Below are positions 1,937-39,844 of a DNA stretch of 49,516 nucleotides, in pieces (position 1 is the stretch's first letter; every line of letters begins with the position of its first letter). The notes under the pieces are model-generated. The model did not search any database and had not been told where the DNA came from. It saw nothing but the letters and a program-made list of their open reading frames with translations. A program made the translations under genes and the position numbers. The stretch comes from Candidatus Amoebophilus sp. 36-38 (GTDB taxonomy: Bacteria > Bacteroidota > Bacteroidia > Cytophagales > Amoebophilaceae), in contig MKUM01000024.1 of assembly GCA_001897825.1 (NCBI GenBank), forward strand, positions 1 through 49,516, given 5' to 3'.

Positions 1937-1963
1937 TTGTTTGCTTACCATTTTGAGATAACT

Positions 1964-4900
1964 ATGTTAAACCAAAGTAAGTTTTCTAGAAAGGCAAAAT
2001 TATTTAGTCAAACTAGCCTAAGCCGTTTAGTCTTCCTTATTGCTTTATTACATGTATCTGCTTTGCAAGCAGACAATCTCCCTTCTGAATTACCTTCCCA
2101 CCAATCATCAAATCTTGTAAGCTTCTCAGGAATGGTAAAGATAGGCCTTGGTGATATCCCAGAAAAAGAAAATTTTAGTCTTGAATATTCTATTAAAGAA
2201 AGGGCTTACTTGGACCTTCTGGAAAGAGATATCCTTCCCTATTTAAAGCGAAAAACTAATAAACCTCCTACCTGCTTTATTAGTTATGCTTGGGGGGACC
2301 CTTATCATGAATATTGGGTGAAACGTTTTTGTGAGATGCTCAATAAAGCAGGAATACAGGTTGTGTTAGATAGATGGACGATTAAGACAGGGAATATTTT
2401 AAATGAATTTGTTAGAAAAATAGAAGAGGTTGACTGGGTGATCGTAGTAGGTACGAAGCTATATTTAGAAAAATATAACAAACGAGCAACTGATTCTAAA
2501 GAAAAAGAGCATGTAGCTAGGTTGGAAGGACAATTGATAGAGTACTTAGTTAGGTATAGTACCGAAAAGGGAAATAAAGTTGTTCCTATTTTATTGGAAG
2601 GGACAGCAGAAGAAAGTTTACCCTTTATGCTACGCCATAAAGTTTTTACTGACTTTAAGAGTGATTATTTTGAGGAACTATTAAAGTTTGTTCATGATTT
2701 ATATAATGTTGATAATCGAGACAAATACTTTGAAGGAATTATAGAGAAGTTTAAGAGATACACTATAGCAGCAGGTGAACATATAACAGAAGTAGAGCGG
2801 AAAGCATATGAGGAAAAGAGAAAGGAGGGGATACTAGCATTGGATAAGGAAATAAAAGAGGAAATTGATTTATATAAGGAGAAAGTATTCAAGCTAGCAG
2901 AAGAATTAGTAGAAAGGGGGAATTATATAGAAAAAGAGCTAACCCTACCGATGAATAGTGTCTTCCCTAGACTTCATAGCTATATTCCTCAAGCTAAAGT
3001 AAATGGCTATGTACCTAGAAGAAAGGAACAACAAGACCTAAGACAAAAGTTAAAGAAAGAAGGTGTATGTGTAGTGTATGGACATGGTGGGGTAGGTAAG
3101 AGTACATTAGCGGTCCAGTATGGACATCATCAAAAAGACCAACAAGCTGTATGGTGGATGAACGCTGAGACAGGAGTCAAACTAGTAACGAGTTACGAAA
3201 ATATCGCTCAAGAGCTAAGTATAGATTATCAGCAGTTAGCTCAAGCGTTAAAACAGCAGCCTAATCAATATCTCTCAAAACTAGCCAGAAAGGTCTACAA
3301 TACTTTAGTAGATCGTCAACAACCCGCTTTACTCATTTTAGATAATGCGGTAGATCTTAGTTTAATAGCTGGGTGCTTGTTGCATCGACCATCTTTGGTA
3401 GAGGTCATTATTACGACTAGAAATAAAAGAGATTTTGAAAATTATACGCAAGTGAAATTGGATGCTTTTTCTAATGAGGAAGGGAAAGTATACATTCAGA
3501 AAAGACTACAATCACTCGAACCCAGTGAGCAAAAGATAGAAGACCTAATTAAAGAAGTAGGACTAATACCGCAAAAGCTAGCTCTAGCTACAGGCTATAT
3601 TAGAGAAATAAAACCTATGAATGTAGAAAAATACATTCATAAGTTAAAGGAACTTAAGAAACAGGATAAAAAAGGAAAGGGAAAGCTGATGTTACCTGAG
3701 GTAAGTTTAGGATTAGAGACCCTAGGATTAAGTTCTCAGTTGGTGATGCGGTATGGAACCTATTTAGATCCAGATTTTATCCCGTTCTCATTGGTAAGTG
3801 CTTTATTAAGGATAAGTGATGAAGAGGAACTAGACACTATCTTAGCTGTGCTAGAAAGATTATCTTTAGTAAAGATTATAAATGGTCCGAGTAAACAAGG
3901 CATTCAAATACATCGAGAAATACAAGTAGCCTGTAAAGAATACCAAAGGTGGAAAAAAGAAATAAGAAACAAGACAGAAGAACAAGCTTTAGTAAAATCG
4001 CTACTACAGACACTAGTTCAATGTATGCCTGAAATATCCAAAGAACCTGATGATACCTGGAGTCAAGCAAAACTTTATGCTACCAATGTAACTAGTGTAT
4101 TAGCAAAGGTACCCAGGGTGATATCTATATACCCCTTGTTAGCTATTTTATCTCATCGTATGGCTGTTTACAGTAGAGCACTAGCTTGTGACTACCTGGC
4201 GGCACTGTCTTTTCATCAGCAAGCCCTTGAAATATATCAGCAAATTTATAAAGAGAAAAATCATCCGAACATAGCTACTTCAATCTACAATTTAGGATAT
4301 GTTTATATAAAGCTAGGCCAATATGAAGAGGCATTAAAATATTCGAAACAAGCTTTTGAAATGAGACGGGCTATCTACACAGGTAACCATCCAGATGTGG
4401 CTAATTCTCTTGATAATCTGGGATTAGTTTATGACCTGTTAGGTGAATGTCAAGAAGCGTTGAAGTATTTGAAACAAGCTCTTGAAATAAGACAGACCAT
4501 CTATCCAGGCAATCATCCGGATATAGCTAGTTCACTCAATCACATAGGAAGAATTCATTCCCGTTTAGAACAAAACGAAACAGCATTAAAGTATCATGAG
4601 CAAGCCCTTAAAATGTATAAGGTGATTTATCCAGGCAATCATCCTCGGATAGCTAATTCACTGAATAATATAGGAACGGTTTATTTCAAGCTAGGGCAAC
4701 TTCGAGCAGCATTAAAATATTATAAACGAGTCCTTAAAATATATCAAGCCTCGTATATGGGCAGTCATCCACATATAGCTATAGTGCTCAATAATCTAGG
4801 AAATGTTTATTATATGCTAGAACAACACGATGAAGCGTTGAAGTATTTGAAGCAAGCCCTTGAGATTCGCCAGCAAGTACTCTCTACCAATCATCCTAAT

Positions 4901-5146
4901 ATAGCTACTTCACTAGATAACTTAGGAACTGTTTATCAAGCTTTAAAGGAACATAAAGAAGCCTTAAAATACTATAAGGCAGCTCTTGAAATTCGCCAGC
5001 GAGCACTTCCTGCTAGTCATCCTGATATAGCTAGTTCACTAAATAATCTAGGATCAGTTTATCAATTTTTAAGTCAGAATGAAGAGGCTTTGAAGCATTA
5101 TGAACAAGCTCTTAAGATGTCAGGTTCTGTATCTAGACAACCCTAA
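1964..5146 (+). CDS. exported SEFIR/TIR-like - NB-ARC - TPR STAND protein, paralogue 1 (frameshifted C-terminus)
   Basis: 1060 residues from the ATG. An in-frame TTG at 1937 would add nine residues but lies at the expected transcription start. Residues 1-38 form a signal peptide with a basic N-terminus, hydrophobic core LVFLIALLHV and ALQA|DN cleavage site. Residues about 102-225 are SEFIR/TIR-like (TCFISYAWGD, GIQVVLDRW, DWVIVVGTKLY, VVPILLEG). An acidic helical linker leads to an NB-ARC-like NTPase: P-loop GHGGVGKST at 373-381, Walker B-like LLILDN at 456-461, TTRN at 484-487 and IPQKLALA. About eight TPR units of 42 residues (EALKY..ALE......NHP.IA.SLNNLG) follow from about 742. STAND proteins of this layout normally use the TPRs as sensor and the N-terminal domain as effector; with a signal peptide, a periplasmic or host-directed role is possible. 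The target is unknown. The end is truncated by a frameshift. Confidence 0.85.
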   Translation: MLNQSKFSRKAKLFSQTSLSRLVFLIALLHVSALQADNLPSELPSHQSSNLVSFSGMVKIGLGDIPEKENFSLEYSIKERAYLDLLERDILPYLKRKTNKPPTCFISYAWGDPYHEYWVKRFCEMLNKAGIQVVLDRWTIKTGNILNEFVRKIEEVDWVIVVGTKLYLEKYNKRATDSKEKEHVARLEGQLIEYLVRYSTEKGNKVVPILLEGTAEESLPFMLRHKVFTDFKSDYFEELLKFVHDLYNVDNRDKYFEGIIEKFKRYTIAAGEHITEVERKAYEEKRKEGILALDKEIKEEIDLYKEKVFKLAEELVERGNYIEKELTLPMNSVFPRLHSYIPQAKVNGYVPRRKEQQDLRQKLKKEGVCVVYGHGGVGKSTLAVQYGHHQKDQQAVWWMNAETGVKLVTSYENIAQELSIDYQQLAQALKQQPNQYLSKLARKVYNTLVDRQQPALLILDNAVDLSLIAGCLLHRPSLVEVIITTRNKRDFENYTQVKLDAFSNEEGKVYIQKRLQSLEPSEQKIEDLIKEVGLIPQKLALATGYIREIKPMNVEKYIHKLKELKKQDKKGKGKLMLPEVSLGLETLGLSSQLVMRYGTYLDPDFIPFSLVSALLRISDEEELDTILAVLERLSLVKIINGPSKQGIQIHREIQVACKEYQRWKKEIRNKTEEQALVKSLLQTLVQCMPEISKEPDDTWSQAKLYATNVTSVLAKVPRVISIYPLLAILSHRMAVYSRALACDYLAALSFHQQALEIYQQIYKEKNHPNIATSIYNLGYVYIKLGQYEEALKYSKQAFEMRRAIYTGNHPDVANSLDNLGLVYDLLGECQEALKYLKQALEIRQTIYPGNHPDIASSLNHIGRIHSRLEQNETALKYHEQALKMYKVIYPGNHPRIANSLNNIGTVYFKLGQLRAALKYYKRVLKIYQASYMGSHPHIAIVLNNLGNVYYMLEQHDEALKYLKQALEIRQQVLSTNHPNIATSLDNLGTVYQALKEHKEALKYYKAALEIRQRALPASHPDIASSLNNLGSVYQFLSQNEEALKHYEQALKMSGSVSRQP

Positions 5147-5228
5147 TCATTTCGGCATACAGATAGTCACAGGAAATATAGAAAAACTTAGAGAAGAGCC
5201 ACGAAAGACGAAGCAATATCATGTGTAG
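5124..5228 (+). pseudogene. out-of-frame remnant of the C-terminus of STAND paralogue 1
   Basis: Just past the stop at 5144-5146, the +1 frame from about 5124 reads VLYLDNPNHFGIQIVTGNIE and then KLREEP, ending at TAG 5226-5228. This matches the conserved ending of the other two paralogues (DLYPENPDHPDIQMVKGNIE, then KL). The natural C-terminal cap has therefore been lost from the frame by a small insertion or deletion between about 5117 and 5127. The shortened protein ends SVSRQP instead. Confidence 0.8.
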
Positions 5229-5331
5229 GAAAGTAGATATATGATATCATCCCTTAACCAGCTTAATGTAGGCCACAGAGGGGATAGGATGAATAATTAA
5301 TAGAATTTGTACAAATTCCTTCTAAAGATTT

Positions 5332-5339
5332 TATATTTA
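5332..5339 (+). promoter_or_regulatory. candidate -7 element of STAND paralogue 2
   Basis: TATATTTA, one mismatch to TAnnTTTG, lies 42 bases before the ATG at 5374. It sits in a block nearly identical to that upstream of paralogue 1 (AAGATTTTATATTT.CTAG), which suggests that the promoter was duplicated with the gene. Confidence 0.35.
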
Positions 5340-5373
5340 CTAGAAGTTGTTTGCTTACTATTTTGAGATAACT

Positions 5374-8300
5374 ATGTTAAAGCAAAGTAAGTCTTCTAGA
5401 AAGGCAAAATTATTTAGTCAAACTAGCATAGTCCGTTTAGTCTTCTTCATTGTTTTATTAAATGTATCTGCTTTGCAAGCAGACAATCCCTCTACTGAAG
5501 CATTTTTCCAACAATTATCAAATTCTGTAAGCTCCTCAGGTATGGTCAAGATAGGTCTTAGTGCTATCCCAGAGAAAGAGAATTTTAGCCTTGAATATTT
5601 TATTAAAGAAAAAGCTTATTTGAAACTATTGGAAAGGGATATCCTTCCCTATCTACGGCAAAAAAATAGTAAACCTCCTACTTGCTTTATTAGCTATGCT
5701 TGGGGAGATCCTTATCATGAATATTGGGTAAAGCGTTTTTGTGAAATGCTTCATAAAGCAGGGATACAAGTTTTATTAGATAGATGGATAATTAAAAAAG
5801 GAAATATTCTAAACGAGTATGTTAAGAAGATAGAAGAGGTTGACTGGGTGATCGTAGTAGGGACCAAGTTGTATTTAGAAAAATATAACAAACGAGCAGC
5901 AAATTCTAAAGAAAAAGAGCATGTGGCTAGGTTAGAGGGACAATTAATAGAATATTTAGTTAGGTATAGTACCGAAAAGGGAAATAAAGTTGTCCCTATT
6001 TTATTGGAAGGGACAGTAGAAGAGAGCTTACCGTTTATGTTACGGCATAAGATTTCATCTGAGTTTATAACGAATGACTATTTTGAAGAATTATTAAAGC
6101 TTGTCCATGATTTATATAATATAGATAATAGAGACAAATACTTTGAAGGAATTATAGAGAAGTTTAGGAGATACACTATAGCAGCAAGTGAGCATATAAC
6201 AGAAGTAGAGCGAAAAGCATATGAGGAAAAGAGGAAGGAGGGGATACTAACATTGGGTAAAGAGATAAAAGAAGAGATTGATTTATATAAGGAGGAGGCA
6301 TTTAAGCTAGCAGAAGAGTTAGCAGAAAGAGGTGATTATATAGAGAAAGAGCTAAACCTACCGACAAGTGGTGCTTTCTCTATACTTCATAGTTATATTC
6401 CTCAAGCTAAATTAAATGGGTATGTATCTAGGATGAAAGAACAACAAGAACTAAGACAAAAATTAAAGAAAGAAGGTGTATGTGTGCTGTATGGGCATGG
6501 AGGGGTAGGTAAGAGTACATTAGCAAGCCAGTATGGACATAATCAAAAAGAACAACAAGCTGTATGGTGGATGACTGCTGAGACAGGTGGCAAACTAATA
6601 ACGAGTTACGAAAATATCGCTCAAGAGCTAGGGATAGATTATCATCAGTTAGCTCAAGCATTCAAACAGCAGCCTAAGCAATATCTCCCAGTACTAGCCA
6701 GAAAGATCTACAATACTTTAGTAGATCGTCAACAACCTGCTTTACTTATTTTAGATAATGCTGTAGATCCTAGTTTAATAGCTGGGTGCTTATTGCACCG
6801 ACCATCTTGGGTACAGATTATTATTACCACCAGAAATAAAAAAGATTTTGAAGATTATACGCAAATGAGATTGGATGCCTTTTCGTATGAGGAAGGGAAA
6901 ATATATATTCAGAAAAGGCTACAACTACTCCAACCTGGTGAAAAGGGGATAGAAGCCTTAATTAAGGAGGTGGGATTAATACCGCAAAAGCTAGCTTTAG
7001 CTACGGGTTATATCAAAGAAATAAAACCTATGAGTGTAGAAAAGTACATTCATAAGTTACAAGAGCTTAAAAAACAAGATAAAAAAGGGAAAGGAAAGCT
7101 GATGTTACCTGAGGTAAGTTTAGGTTTAGAAACTTTGGGACTAAGTTCTCAGTTGGTGATGCGCTATGGAACCTATTTAGATCCAGACTTTATTCCGTTT
7201 GCATTGGTAAGTGCTTTATTAGGGGTAAGTGATGAGGAGGAATTAGATACTATCTTAGCTGTGCTGGAAAGATTATCTTTAGTAAAGATTATAAATGATC
7301 CAAGCAAGCAAGGAATTCAAATACATCGAGAAATACAAGCAGCCTGTAGAGAATATAAGAATTGGGAGAGAAAAGTGAAAAACGAAGTAGCAGAACAATT
7401 TTTAGTAAAATCGTTGCTACAGACGCTAATTCAATGCATGCCTGAAATAGCTAAAGAGCCTGATGCTACCTGGACACAAGCAGAACTTTATGCTACCAAT
7501 GTAACGAGAGTATTAACAAGTGTATCCAAAATGGTAGCTATATACCCCTTGTTAGCCATTTTGTCTAATCGTATGGCTGTTTACAGTAAAGAGTTAGCTT
7601 GTGACTACCTGGTAGCTCTTTCTTTTCATCAGCAAGCCCTTGAAATATATCAGCAAATGTATAAAGGAAAAAATCACCTGGACATGGCCAAATTATTAAG
7701 TAATATAGGAATGGTTTATGCAGAACTAGGCCAATGTGAAGAAGCACTAAAGTATTCGAAACAAGCTCTTGCAATGGTTCAAACTTTATATTCTGGCAAT
7801 CATCCAGAAATAGCTGTTTCTCTAAATTCTTTAGCTTGGATTTATTTCGACTCAAACCGACCCCAAGAAGCATTAAAATATTCAAAGCAAGCTCTTGAAA
7901 TGGGTCAAACCTTATATTCTGGCAATCATCCAGAGATAGCTATGTCTCTCAATGGTGTAGGAGATGCTTATTATGAATTAGCTCAATATAAAGAATCATT
8001 AAAGTATGATCAACAAGCTCTTGAAATGTGGCAAATTTTGTGTACAGGCAATCATCCGGCAGTAGCTATCTCGCTAAGTAATTTAGGAACTACTTATCGA
8101 CAGATAGGTCAATATGAGGAAGCCTTAAAGTATTACGAACAAGCTCTTGAGATGAGGCAATCTATGTATTCTCCCCATCATGCATCTGTAGCTCACTCCT
8201 TACATCAGCTAGGAGTAGTTTATAGAAAATTAGGTCGATATGAAGAAGCGTTGAAATGTCACAAGCAAAATCTTGAAATATATCAAACCTTGTATGCTGA

Positions 8301-8772
8301 CAATCATCCTAATATGGCTAGGTCACTTCATTACCTAGGGAAAATTTATCAAGCTTTAGGTCAATCTCAAGAAGCCTTAAAATATTATCATCAAGCCCTT
8401 AAAATGTACCAAGCTGTGTATTCTTACAATAATAATTCGGATATAGCCGATTCCTTAAACAGCCTAGGAGCAGCTTATAAAGATTTAGGTCAATATGAAA
8501 AAGCCTTGAAATATTCGGAGCAAAGTCTTAAAATAATGCAAGACTTGCATTTTGGCAATCATCCGATTATAGCTACCTCGCTCAATACTTTAGGAGAAGT
8601 TTATCAAGTTTTAGGTAAATATGAACTGGCGTTGGAGTATTATCAGCAAGCCCTCAAAATGAGACAAGACTTGTATCCAGAGAATCCTGACCATCCTGAT
8701 ATACAGATGGTTAAAGGAAATATAGAAAAACTTGGAGAAGAATTACGAAAAACAGGACAAGATCATGAATAG
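5374..8772 (+). CDS. exported SEFIR/TIR-like - NB-ARC - TPR STAND protein, paralogue 2
   Basis: 1132 residues from the ATG at 5374; the upstream TTG at 5347 is less likely for the reason given for paralogue 1. The order is the same: signal peptide (core LVFFIVLLNV, then ALQADN), SEFIR/TIR-like domain (FISYAWGDPYHEYWVKRF, VLLDRWIIKKG, WVIVVGTKLYLEKY), charged linker, and NB-ARC with P-loop GHGGVGKST and LLILDNAVD. Nine TPR units follow, with an intact cap ending NPDHPDIQMVKGNIEKL. The effector and NTPase parts are highly similar to paralogue 1, whereas the TPR arrays differ in number and sequence, as expected if the TPRs define what is recognised. One TPR linker carries an extra residue (YSYNNNSDIAD). 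It is the second of three tandem copies. Confidence 0.88.
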   Translation: MLKQSKSSRKAKLFSQTSIVRLVFFIVLLNVSALQADNPSTEAFFQQLSNSVSSSGMVKIGLSAIPEKENFSLEYFIKEKAYLKLLERDILPYLRQKNSKPPTCFISYAWGDPYHEYWVKRFCEMLHKAGIQVLLDRWIIKKGNILNEYVKKIEEVDWVIVVGTKLYLEKYNKRAANSKEKEHVARLEGQLIEYLVRYSTEKGNKVVPILLEGTVEESLPFMLRHKISSEFITNDYFEELLKLVHDLYNIDNRDKYFEGIIEKFRRYTIAASEHITEVERKAYEEKRKEGILTLGKEIKEEIDLYKEEAFKLAEELAERGDYIEKELNLPTSGAFSILHSYIPQAKLNGYVSRMKEQQELRQKLKKEGVCVLYGHGGVGKSTLASQYGHNQKEQQAVWWMTAETGGKLITSYENIAQELGIDYHQLAQAFKQQPKQYLPVLARKIYNTLVDRQQPALLILDNAVDPSLIAGCLLHRPSWVQIIITTRNKKDFEDYTQMRLDAFSYEEGKIYIQKRLQLLQPGEKGIEALIKEVGLIPQKLALATGYIKEIKPMSVEKYIHKLQELKKQDKKGKGKLMLPEVSLGLETLGLSSQLVMRYGTYLDPDFIPFALVSALLGVSDEEELDTILAVLERLSLVKIINDPSKQGIQIHREIQAACREYKNWERKVKNEVAEQFLVKSLLQTLIQCMPEIAKEPDATWTQAELYATNVTRVLTSVSKMVAIYPLLAILSNRMAVYSKELACDYLVALSFHQQALEIYQQMYKGKNHLDMAKLLSNIGMVYAELGQCEEALKYSKQALAMVQTLYSGNHPEIAVSLNSLAWIYFDSNRPQEALKYSKQALEMGQTLYSGNHPEIAMSLNGVGDAYYELAQYKESLKYDQQALEMWQILCTGNHPAVAISLSNLGTTYRQIGQYEEALKYYEQALEMRQSMYSPHHASVAHSLHQLGVVYRKLGRYEEALKCHKQNLEIYQTLYADNHPNMARSLHYLGKIYQALGQSQEALKYYHQALKMYQAVYSYNNNSDIADSLNSLGAAYKDLGQYEKALKYSEQSLKIMQDLHFGNHPIIATSLNTLGEVYQVLGKYELALEYYQQALKMRQDLYPENPDHPDIQMVKGNIEKLGEELRKTGQDHE

Positions 8773-8849
8773 AAAAATATAAGATGAATAAATTCTATTA
8801 ATTTGGCGAAGTTAATTTTTTGCAAATGTCCTCTGAAGGTTAGCACTTT

Positions 8850-8857
8850 TATATTTG
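8850..8857 (+). promoter_or_regulatory. candidate -7 element of STAND paralogue 3
   Basis: TATATTTG matches TAnnTTTG and starts 38 bases before the ATG at 8888. The flank TTGCTA.AAGT is shared with the other two paralogues, although the rest of this intergenic region has diverged. Confidence 0.38.
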
Positions 8858-8887
8858 CTAAAGTCCGCTTGCTAATTATTCAAGATA

Positions 8888-35472: not shown

Positions 35473-35600
35473 AGAGTTCTTACATAATCAAGAATTGAGT
35501 TTATCTGAGCAGGAAGAAATTTGCGAGAAACCGAAGTTTACTGCAATAAGTAAATATGAAGAACCAATTACTGACGAACGCAGAGGACTCAAGGCGACGG
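35473..35600 (-). repeat. dispersed repeat with degenerate REP end, copy upstream of dapD
   Basis: Read on the minus strand, this segment matches 47821-47940 over most of its length: CCGTCGCCTTGAGTCCTCTG, then TTCGTCAGTAATT, then GGTTTCTC.CAAATT and TTCCTGC, then CAATTCTTG. The first part is a decayed class A REP and the second part resembles the direct repeats that flank the RAYT genes. It ends 17 bases before the dapD start codon, so the dapD promoter must lie in or beyond the repeat. Confidence 0.7.
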
Positions 35601-36661: not shown

Positions 36662-37855
36662 TTGTTTTTACTGTTGGGTACTACAAAAAATTTCTTTGAT
36701 TTAACGATAGAAGAGTTACGCACAGCCATAGAGCTATTAAAAGGACCTGCTTTTCGTGCAGACCAGATATGGAGATGGGTATATCAGCTAGGCGTACAGG
36801 CCTTTTCAACCATGAATAATGTACCCTTATTATTCAGAGAGACACTAGGCCTACATTATAGTTTGGAACGTACCCAGGAACATCAAGTACTTATTTCAAA
36901 AGATAAGACAATAAAGTGGTTACTTGCTTTCAGCGATGCCAATCAGGTAGAAACGGTGTGGATACCTGAGCAAACCCGTAGTACCCTCTGTATCTCTTCT
37001 CAAGTAGGGTGTACATTAAATTGTAAGTTTTGTCACACAGGTACACAACCATTGGTACGTAACCTCAGGGCAGGCGAAATAGTAGCCCAGCTGCTTCATG
37101 CAAAAGATGTACTCCAAGATTGGCCCTCTCATGCTCCTACCAGAAAAATTAATAATATCGTGATGATGGGAATGGGTGAACCGCTCCTTAACTATGAGCA
37201 AGTGGCCAAAGCTATCCAGATTATGACGCACCCGCAAGGGCTTGATATCTCTCGGAAAAAGATTACCTTGTCTACTTCAGGTATAGTTCCTCAGATTAAA
37301 CGTTGTGCCGAAGAATTAGGTGTTAACCTAGCCATATCTCTACATGCTGTAACAGACGAATTGCGTAATTATCTAGTACCCATCAATAAAAAATATCCTA
37401 TTAACGAATTACTCCAAGCCTGTAGAGACTATGCATCAATAACAGGATATAGAAGAATTACATTTGAATACGTGATGCTCAATGGCATCAATGACAGTCC
37501 TGCTGATGCTAAAAAATTAGTAGCCTTGATTAAAGGCATACCTGCCAAGATCAACTTGATCCCATTTAATCCATGGCCAGGAACCGAGTTTGAGTGTTCA
37601 ACAGAGTCAAATATCAAGCAGTTTGCTGCTATTATAGAAAAAGCAGGATATATAGCACCTGTTAGGACTCCTAGAGGAGAAGATATCATGGCAGCTTGTG
37701 GCCAGTTAAAGTCTGCTAGCATCAAGGCAAAAGCTTATCAAGCTTCCTATCGCCCTCAGAGTCACTCGTTAGAGGACTCTGAGAAATTGGGAATAGAAAA
37801 AATGGCGACAGAACTAGAAAAACTAAGCCGAGCCGTCTTAGCTAAGAAGGAATAA
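36662..37855 (+). CDS. rlmN: 23S rRNA/tRNA (adenine-C2)-methyltransferase
   Basis: 397 residues. This radical-SAM enzyme methylates A2503 of 23S rRNA and some tRNAs. The [4Fe-4S] motif CTLNCKFCHTG, the MMGMGEPLLNY stretch and the C-terminal catalytic Cys in MAACGQL are present, as is the N-terminal helical domain (AFRADQIWRWVY). No ATG start exists: after an in-frame TAG at 36644, the first start options are TTG at 36662 or 36674. The C-terminus carries an in-frame REP palindrome (37751-37784, coding RPQSHSLEDSEK) between the normal end of the enzyme and a 23-residue tail. The region coding this tail, with its downstream flank, is copied at 42734-42848. Confidence 0.93.
   Translation: MFLLLGTTKNFFDLTIEELRTAIELLKGPAFRADQIWRWVYQLGVQAFSTMNNVPLLFRETLGLHYSLERTQEHQVLISKDKTIKWLLAFSDANQVETVWIPEQTRSTLCISSQVGCTLNCKFCHTGTQPLVRNLRAGEIVAQLLHAKDVLQDWPSHAPTRKINNIVMMGMGEPLLNYEQVAKAIQIMTHPQGLDISRKKITLSTSGIVPQIKRCAEELGVNLAISLHAVTDELRNYLVPINKKYPINELLQACRDYASITGYRRITFEYVMLNGINDSPADAKKLVALIKGIPAKINLIPFNPWPGTEFECSTESNIKQFAAIIEKAGYIAPVRTPRGEDIMAACGQLKSASIKAKAYQASYRPQSHSLEDSEKLGIEKMATELEKLSRAVLAKKE
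37751..37784. repeat. REP-like palindrome inside the rlmN reading frame, class A
   Basis: CGCCCTCAGAGTC then GACTCTGAGA with an 11-base loop ACTCGTTAGAG. The arms and loop match the left REP of the RAYT units (CCTCAGAGTC-ACTCGCAGAG-GACTCTGAGG) except for one extra loop base. That extra base helps keep the rlmN frame open through the element. Confidence 0.85.
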
Positions 37856-37881
37856 ATGTCAAGTGCTAGATATTTATAATT

Positions 37882-38064
37882 TACTATTTCATATTTAGCT
37901 TAACTCTTACTACCACAAGTCCGATTTCTCACAAATTCTTTCTGCCTAAAGAAGTAAATTCTTGATTTCGGAAGAACTCTATTTTATTTAGTAACTTTTT
38001 TGTAACGAGCCTAATAATACAATCAATAATATAAAACTTTATTCCCAATTTTTTGATATATTAT
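37882..38064 (+). repeat. direct repeat R1 of the RAYT array
   Basis: About 183 bases (from TACTATTTCATATTTAGC to TTTGATATATTAT), repeated at 38771-38954 and 39661-39844. R1 differs from the other two at a few positions and is one base shorter, so it is the older copy. It directly follows the rlmN gene. The inner part (TTTCTCACAAATTC, TTCCTGCC-like, AATTCTTG) is related to the dispersed repeats at 35473 and 47821. Confidence 0.85.
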
Positions 38065-38070
38065 CAACGC

Positions 38071-38100
38071 CCTCAGAGTCACTCGCAGAGGACTCTGAGG
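38071..38100 (+). repeat. left REP of RAYT copy 1, class A
   Basis: Perfect 10-bp arms CCTCAGAGTC and GACTCTGAGG around ACTCGCAGAG. It lies 28 bases before the GTG start of the transposase gene, close enough that the hairpin could form in its leader RNA. Confidence 0.85.
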
Positions 38101-38128
38101 AATAAAAAAACATGATCAAAATTTTGAA

Positions 38129-38662
38129 GTGTATTTTTGTACAATTACATGCTATCAATGGCTTCCGCTGATTGAGGAATCTCAAACATATGATGCAGTA
38201 TACCAATGGTTTAACCACCTGATCAAGGACGATTGCCAAATAACAGGATATATTATTATGCCTAATCATCTCCATGTCTTACTATATCCAACTCATCCAG
38301 TTAAATCCTTGAACCAACTTGTTGGTGAAGGAAAGAGATTTATTGCTTATGAAATTGTAAAGGGCTTAGAGCAACATGGAAAATCATCCCTACTTGAGAA
38401 ATTAAGAAACGGTGTGAGAGCGAAAGAAAGGATAAAAGGCAAGAAACATCAGGTATTTCGTCTGTCATTTGATGCTCGTAGGTGCTTTAACGAGAAAATG
38501 TTAGAACAAAAGCTCTCTTATATACATCATAATCCGGTTAAAGGTAAATGGTCTTTAGTAGATGATTATGTTAATTATCCCTACTCAAGTGCAAATTATT
38601 ATGAAACGGGCAAGCTAGGTCCTGTTGCAATAACGCATTATAAAGAGCTAGGTAAAGACTGA
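38129..38662 (+). CDS. REP-associated tyrosine transposase (RAYT, Y1 family), copy 1
   Basis: 177 residues from a GTG. The HUH motif is PNHLHVLL (His47 and His49), and the probable catalytic Tyr131 lies in KLSYIHHNPVKGKWSLV, followed by YPYSSANYY; this order is diagnostic of RAYT proteins in the IS200-like superfamily. They nick single-stranded REP DNA through a covalent tyrosine link. The open frame extends ten codons upstream (KHDQNFEV in front of YFCTI) without a canonical start, so the N-terminus may be slightly longer or the start may have been lost. The protein is identical to copy 2, 890 bases downstream. Confidence 0.88.
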   Translation: MYFCTITCYQWLPLIEESQTYDAVYQWFNHLIKDDCQITGYIIMPNHLHVLLYPTHPVKSLNQLVGEGKRFIAYEIVKGLEQHGKSSLLEKLRNGVRAKERIKGKKHQVFRLSFDARRCFNEKMLEQKLSYIHHNPVKGKWSLVDDYVNYPYSSANYYETGKLGPVAITHYKELGKD

Positions 38663-38727
38663 GCGTATCATCTTCAGAGCCAAGATAAAATTGATCTTAG
38701 AATCAAAAGTAAAAGCCTAAACCTTAT

Positions 38728-38763
38728 CGCCCTCAGAGTCCTCTGTGAGTGACTCCGAGGGCG
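38728..38763 (-). repeat. right REP of RAYT copy 1, class A
   Basis: CGCCCTCAGAGTC and GACTCCGAGGGCG, 13-bp arms with one mismatch, around CTCTGTGAGT, followed by GGAAA. It is inverted relative to the left REP by its loop sequence and lies 65 bases past the transposase stop. Confidence 0.85.
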
Positions 38764-38770
38764 GGAAATT

Positions 38771-38954
38771 TACTATTTCATATTTAGCTTAACTCTTACT
38801 ATCACAAGTCCGATTTCTCACAAATTCTTCCTGCCTAAAGAAGTAAATTCTTGATTTAGGAAGAACTCTATATTTATTTAGTAACTTTTTTGTAACGAGC
38901 CTAATAATACAATCAATAATATAAAACTTTATTCCCAATTTTTTGATATATTAT
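38771..38954 (+). repeat. direct repeat R2 of the RAYT array
   Basis: 184 bases between the two RAYT units. It appears identical to R3 (39661-39844) and slightly different from R1, which supports duplication of an R-REP-RAYT-REP unit of 890 bases. Confidence 0.85.
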
Positions 38955-38960
38955 CAACGC

Positions 38961-38990
38961 CCTCAGAGTCACTCGCAGAGGACTCTGAGG
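38961..38990 (+). repeat. left REP of RAYT copy 2, class A
   Basis: Same 30 bases as the left REP of copy 1: perfect 10-bp arms CCTCAGAGTC and GACTCTGAGG around ACTCGCAGAG. Confidence 0.85.
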
Positions 38991-39018
38991 AATAAAAAAA
39001 CATGATCAAAATTTTGAA

Positions 39019-39552
39019 GTGTATTTTTGTACAATTACATGCTATCAATGGCTTCCGCTGATTGAGGAATCTCAAACATATGATGCAGTATACCAATGGT
39101 TTAACCACCTGATCAAGGACGATTGCCAAATAACAGGATATATTATTATGCCTAATCATCTCCATGTCTTACTATATCCAACTCATCCAGTTAAATCCTT
39201 GAACCAACTTGTTGGTGAAGGAAAGAGATTTATTGCTTATGAAATTGTAAAGGGCTTAGAGCAACATGGAAAATCATCCCTACTTGAGAAATTAAGAAAC
39301 GGTGTGAGAGCGAAAGAAAGGATAAAAGGCAAGAAACATCAGGTATTTCGTCTGTCATTTGATGCTCGTAGGTGCTTTAACGAGAAAATGTTAGAACAAA
39401 AGCTCTCTTATATACATCATAATCCGGTTAAAGGTAAATGGTCTTTAGTAGATGATTATGTTAATTATCCCTACTCAAGTGCAAATTATTATGAAACGGG
39501 CAAGCTAGGTCCTGTTGCAATAACGCATTATAAAGAGCTAGGTAAAGACTGA
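39019..39552 (+). CDS. REP-associated tyrosine transposase (RAYT), copy 2
   Basis: 177 residues, identical in sequence to the copy at 38129, with the same GTG start, HUH motif PNHLHVLL and Tyr131. Because DNA and protein match completely, both copies should be functional or defective together. Having the only two copies in the window in tandem suggests duplication by recombination between the flanking direct repeats rather than independent insertions. Confidence 0.88.
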   Translation: MYFCTITCYQWLPLIEESQTYDAVYQWFNHLIKDDCQITGYIIMPNHLHVLLYPTHPVKSLNQLVGEGKRFIAYEIVKGLEQHGKSSLLEKLRNGVRAKERIKGKKHQVFRLSFDARRCFNEKMLEQKLSYIHHNPVKGKWSLVDDYVNYPYSSANYYETGKLGPVAITHYKELGKD

Positions 39553-39617
39553 GCGTATCATCTTCAGAGCCAAGATAAAATTGATCTTAGAATCAAAAGT
39601 AAAAGCCTAAACCTTAT

Positions 39618-39653
39618 CGCCCTCAGAGTCCTCTGTGAGTGACTCCGAGGGCG
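39618..39653 (-). repeat. right REP of RAYT copy 2, class A
   Basis: Same sequence as the right REP of copy 1 (arms CGCCCTCAGAGTC and GACTCCGAGGGCG, loop CTCTGTGAGT). It is followed directly by direct repeat R3. Confidence 0.85.
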
Positions 39654-39660
39654 GGAAATT

Positions 39661-39844
39661 TACTATTTCATATTTAGCTTAACTCTTACTATCACAAGTC
39701 CGATTTCTCACAAATTCTTCCTGCCTAAAGAAGTAAATTCTTGATTTAGGAAGAACTCTATATTTATTTAGTAACTTTTTTGTAACGAGCCTAATAATAC
39801 AATCAATAATATAAAACTTTATTCCCAATTTTTTGATATATTAT
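39661..39844 (+). repeat. direct repeat R3 of the RAYT array
   Basis: Third copy of the 184-base repeat. The match stops at TTGATATATTAT: R1 and R2 continue with CAACGCCCTCAG (left REP), R3 with AGATAAAGGATCC, the unique leader of the ankyrin gene. That junction marks the right edge of the array. Confidence 0.85.

Follow-up and report, generated by a model that had tools for sequence, protein, structure and literature searches.

Does a tandem pair of identical transposase genes, each enclosed by inverted hairpins, record the recent movement of a REP-bounded unit, or did the doubling come about in another way? RAYTs have been described as domesticated transposases, with genes that remain in place and REPs that move. 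The locus lies in a 49,516-nt stretch of DNA (contig MKUM01000024.1, positions 1–49,516; hereafter the window) from Candidatus Amoebophilus sp. 36-38. An original prediction, made from the letters of the window, had taken its host to be an amoeba symbiont, in agreement with the Amoebophilus-type symbiont genome from which the contig comes, and had read the doubling as a sign of present or recent mobility.

Layout of the array, its gene and its hairpins

Self-comparison of the window sequence established that 972 nt (37983–38954) recur at 38873–39844 with no mismatches and a spacing of 890 nt, an identity whose length alone excludes a chance origin; the predicted arrangement, two identical transposase genes 890 bases apart in an array of R repeats and REPs, is exact as described. 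The two units stand head to tail in the contig, in the order R-REP-RAYT-REP-R-REP-RAYT-REP-R. The first consists of a left REP (38068–38100, plus strand; 10-bp stem, 1-nt bulge, 3 bp and 3-nt loop), RAYT copy 1 (38129–38662, plus strand) and a right REP (38731–38763, minus strand), and the second repeats the series with a left REP (38958–38990, plus strand), RAYT copy 2 (39019–39552, plus strand) and a right REP (39621–39653, minus strand). Both open reading frames are identical, each coding for 177 residues from a GTG, with the HUH motif as NHLH and the catalytic Tyr in YIHHNP. The opposite orientation foreseen for the left and right REPs likewise held, the two being inverted and 94% complementary.

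Three direct repeats, all on the plus strand, flank and separate the units: R1 (37878–38064; 187 nt), R2 (38767–38954; 188 nt) and R3 (39657–39844; 188 nt), the last lying upstream of an ankyrin-repeat gene at 39921–42272. In each R the left part (about 105 nt in R1) is one degenerate half of a MITE-like repeat dispersed in the genome, the remainder being 82 nt that adjoin the ankyrin gene, and this right part is the same in R1, R2 and R3. R2 and R3 show no differences; the left 105 nt of R1 hold every departure from them, namely one 1-nt indel and four substitutions. The MITE-like repeat, which has inverted ends (AGAGTTCTTCCGAAACC), occurs in R1–R3 and in at least 40 places in this genome, and also near window positions 35583 and 47831; it often encloses REP hairpins of the B type described below. 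Elsewhere in the window, a 2500-residue protein encoded on the minus strand (12513–20015) has, by eye, cysteine-protease-like, lipase-like, NTPase and TPR parts, and three paralogues encoded opposite it on the plus strand (1937–12277) have TIR-like, NTPase and TPR parts, again by eye.

The gene is a RAYT, as predicted, a label that rests on structure, motifs and REP association. Its product matched the NCBIfam model NF047646 (REP_Tyr_transpos) over the full profile with an E-value of 8.4e-19 and 67.9 bits, short of the curated cut-off of 80, which is an annotation threshold and not a biological feature; because sister proteins whose genes lie between inverted REPs reach 69.7 and 59.4 bits, that cut-off is too strict for the lineage to which the gene belongs, here called lineage A. 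An AlphaFold model (pLDDT 86) found its best fold match in the E. coli RAYT-REP complex 4er8 (Foldseek 1.3e-4), with a VIA-align Z of 11.8 and an rmsd of 3.1 over 128 residues, the next row having a Z of 8.2; phmmer against PDB sequences returned nothing useful, whereas the fold search did find matches. Residues N46-H47-x-H49 of the HUH motif and the single Tyr, Y131 of YIHHNP, are invariant in nine relatives, and so are NP, GKW and SSA. These relatives come from free-living Cytophagales and Chitinophagaceae and have 45–67% amino acid identity, and in the tree the window gene falls among sequences of Cyclobacteriaceae and other Cytophagales, at a distance from the remaining RAYTs that this genome encodes; a plasmid search for the RAYT gave distant relatives only (24–29%).

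The A-type REPs adopt a fold of a 10-bp stem, one unpaired base, three further pairs and a loop of 3–6 nt, and DNA folding of single REPs agrees with this bulged hairpin. In a set of 21 REPs, drawn from this genome and from relatives in Cytophagales, standard pairs fill 96% of the pair cells and 8 of the 13 pairs have changed on both sides, a level that none of 500 shuffles reached. The foot is C-rich (e.g. CGCC, TCCC), and the canonical GT[AG]G tetranucleotide 5' of the hairpin is absent. Free-living relatives (50–67% amino acid identity) carry the same REP, and wherever both sides are readable it forms an inverted pair with a mirrored bulge, so that the inverted pair is probably ancestral to lineage A.

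Origin of the doubling

The step from tandem copy to mobility did not survive closer analysis, because the joint of the repeat lies inside R and not at the REP ends, and because R2 has the composition of an R3/R1 recombinant. As read from the contig, the doubling does not support RAYT mobility and points instead to recombination or assembly. The left part of R2 carries R3-type variants and lacks those private to R1, and its right part is common to all R copies, so that R2 fits the form expected of an unequal crossing-over between R1 and R3. With a probability of just under 0.6, we favour the reading that a REPtron (RAYT-A with its two inverted REPs) was doubled by unequal homologous recombination between R repeats. 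The REP-RAYT-REP unit would first have lain between two older 187-nt direct repeats, and recombination between R1 and R3 would then have turned it into a tandem array. By analogy with the biochemistry of E. coli TnpAREP, the RAYT protein would bind single-stranded DNA at the bulged REP hairpin, and its HUH/Tyr site may have cut REP DNA, helping REPINs to copy to new places; we infer this past activity, as we do the mechanism of the doubling and its reality in cells.

Whether the contig overstates the copy number is the most substantial competing concern. It is possible, though less likely, that the genome holds a single R-REP-RAYT-REP-R unit and that the assembler walked the R loop twice. The draft looks like a short-read graph assembly, a single unit between R1 and R3 would already make a loop in such a graph since their right 82 nt are identical, and two contigs start with the same 76 nt, as short-k graphs give. 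Exact-repeat statistics on 803 kb of this draft's contigs, window included, yielded just two exact repeats longer than 125 nt, both of them simple tandem double walks: the array, with a period of 890 nt, and a tandem with a period of 891 nt at the start of contig C37. As no other non-terminal exact repeat of that length occurs in the 803 kb, "two copies" denotes what the contig shows and not a measured copy number. Yet repeats of 85–125 nt were resolved elsewhere, so that reads should be long enough to cross an 82-nt repeat and the extra copy may well have read support; assemblers collapse copies more often than they add them; and unique flanks are present on both sides of the array. On balance the duplication is somewhat more likely than not to be real.

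Local transposition, with the RAYT carrying its own REP-bounded unit to a neighbouring site, is improbable. The repeated block does hold a complete REP-RAYT-REP, and family B units elsewhere in this genome give the impression of having moved whole, but the block also takes in R, which has limits other than REP ends and which a transposing REP-RAYT-REP would not copy; the recombinant composition of R2 and the absence of the conserved start from both gene copies speak against it as well. Least probable of all is an ordinary IS200/IS605 insertion sequence, which would account for the HUH/Y1 fold common to IS608 and ISDra2 TnpA and for a weak match to Pfam Y1_Tnp (under its cut-off for lineage A), but the IS200 model NF033573 gives an E-value of 0.03 and 14.5 bits (cut-off 55) as against 8e-19 for NF047646, the NHLH, YIHHNP and SS motifs belong to class 2 (PMC6006769), inverted REPs flank the gene and REPINs lie elsewhere, and no tnpB was recognised by eye among the neighbouring ORFs.

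RAYTs and REPs across the genome

The present state of the two copies suggests decay. Relatives begin with M-S-T-H and about ten residues ahead of the first strand, and both window copies are without this region. Relative to a second RAYT-A locus, on contig C37, the window copies have lost 36 nt between the gene and its left REP, a deletion that on this comparison has removed the conserved MSTH start and left GTG 38129 as the only usual start. This GTG has no obvious ribosome-binding site, and such sites are often absent in Bacteroidota. A frameshift restoring an ATG at 38112 was considered and dropped, the by-eye alignment with C37 consisting of substitutions and the upstream 36-nt deletion with no indel at that point. 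With the conserved N-terminal start region lost in both, the two RAYT copies may be inactive.

The C37 locus (8113–9028) is a pseudogene with a frameshift and in-frame stops, and it also holds a 223-nt partial tandem repeat (98%), so that the array is not the only case of local duplication at a RAYT locus; the joint of this repeat coincides with the left REP edge. Comparison of the window RAYT with its decayed C37 counterpart gave a dN of 0.114, a dS of 0.75 and a dN/dS of 0.15, so that the protein had long been under selection. Most simply, RAYT-A is read as a formerly active lineage now decaying. The same contig opens with an 891-nt exact tandem of nine ankyrin units (1–1835), possibly an assembly loop.

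The original prediction would have fallen had the genome contained no other REPs of this family. A BLAST search of the genome with a 99-nt REPIN query returned 33 matches, the array itself included, and these comprise about 8 REP doublets (REPINs), about 12 dispersed single REPs and the REPs at the two RAYT-A loci, and sites with the exact palindrome likewise occur; the census is that of the BLAST search, two-mismatch pattern counts having been discarded since a reversed control pattern gave more matches. The same query had no match in four kin of the family (two of the same genus) or in one other Cytophagales genome, and an A. asiaticus-like congener (G001) has no REPs of the A-type family. 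The A-type REPs and RAYT-A accordingly occur together, having been either gained together or lost elsewhere.

Among the dispersed single REPs of the window, one (20640–20674, minus strand) has a compensatory T-A to C-G change in its stem, and another (37751–37787, plus strand) lies across the 3' end of rlmN. This rlmN shares 95% DNA identity with that of G001 up to 37745, six bases before the REP, which spans the place where the congener's gene stops; the congener's stop codon is absent here, and the open frame continues across the REP to give an RlmN with about 37 additional residues (37745–37855). On contig C72, two REPINs (52243–52341 and 52436–52533) lie 193 nt apart with one difference in 98 nt and differing flanks, a pattern that makes them a candidate case of fairly recent REPIN copying.

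A second RAYT family, B, is represented by five dispersed RAYT-like genes, each enclosed by inverted hairpins whose foot is GTGG or GTGC. The genes lie at C23:19363–19872, C8:22751–23269, C23:8099–8608, C50:3170–3673 and C56:3915–4429, and the units at the last three are absent from the corresponding sites of G001, according to an empty-site comparison that covered family B and the C72 flanks. At these three intergenic sites G001 keeps both neighbour genes, the matched ends being separated by roughly 130–190 nt that contain neither a RAYT nor a REP. The B-type REP consensus finds 71 sites in the genome, against 0 for the reversed control, and three family B proteins score 79, 77.9 and 78.8 bits on NF047646 (cut-off 80).

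Three of the B copies are 87–89% identical to one another, their similarity ending at the REPs, and are more alike than the flanks of the B sites are to G001 (74–80% identity), so that, if rates are similar, at least some family B copying would postdate the split from the congener. G001 itself contains the 5' part of a B gene together with the left REP (C1:1808390–1808560), broken off beside another palindrome family (TCGCTCGGTTATGCCGAGTGAC), and loss of B units in that genome is therefore a possible alternative. No target-site duplications were seen around the family B units, an absence that is expected for this enzyme class but is not proof. Better evidence for the mobility of REPs and REP-bounded units does exist at loci other than the array, notably those of family B, and these units are a more interesting lead than the duplicated array, whose chief interest would be as a case of recombination between repeats. 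A Bacteroidota symbiont with two RAYT lineages, REPINs and a REP across a gene end is a place to test whether whole REPtrons still move, and REP-bounded units at sites that are empty in a congener add to its value for that purpose. Published work has held that such REP-RAYT units do not appear to move, and no sign of recent transposition was reported in A. asiaticus (PMC3196728).

Comparison with known systems

The gene and its hairpins form a real system of an already known kind. Among characterised elements of the same genus, ISCaa10 of A. asiaticus 5a2, of the IS200 group (PMC3196728), also encodes a Y1 transposase, but by its description it is set apart by a length of 147 residues and 527 bp and by having no inverted REPs. 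The REPINs recall those of Pseudomonas fluorescens (PMC3116915), which are likewise dispersed pairs of inverted REPs with about 30 nt between the two; Pseudomonas REP families number tens or hundreds of copies (PMC2817692), as against about 8 doublets here. With E. coli TnpAREP (4er8) and the group 2 REPs, the locus has in common the fold over 128 residues, a REP hairpin interrupted by a bulge and inverted REPs on both sides. The two proteins are 17% identical, and the REPs found here differ in their C-rich foot, in having no GTAG before the stem and in a 1-nt bulge where E. coli has a mismatch pair.

A close likeness is to the RAYT/TnpAREP subclass 2.6 (group 5), which is found in Bacteroidetes and described by the motifs NH[LIV]H, WQ, YIH[QN]NP and SS (PMC6006769). 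Its proteins, of about 179 residues, share with the window gene NH[LIV]H, YIHxNP and the downstream SS motif, and atypical hairpins, found again elsewhere in the genome, border its genes too. In the motif check, NHLH, SS and the Bacteroidota host agreed and YIHHNP was near, whereas FR, within VFRLSFD of lineage A, stands in place of the consensus WQ. Apart from this replacement, the window gene would fit a subclass 2.6-like RAYT of a Cytophagales lineage, as judged from motifs and host phylum. What sets the present locus apart from the published subclass is that two tandem copies stand in the contig, that their start region is missing and that the REP structure is defined: the covarying, bulged REP found in several genera of free-living Cytophagales puts a definite structure to the "atypical" REPs reported for Bacteroidetes RAYTs.
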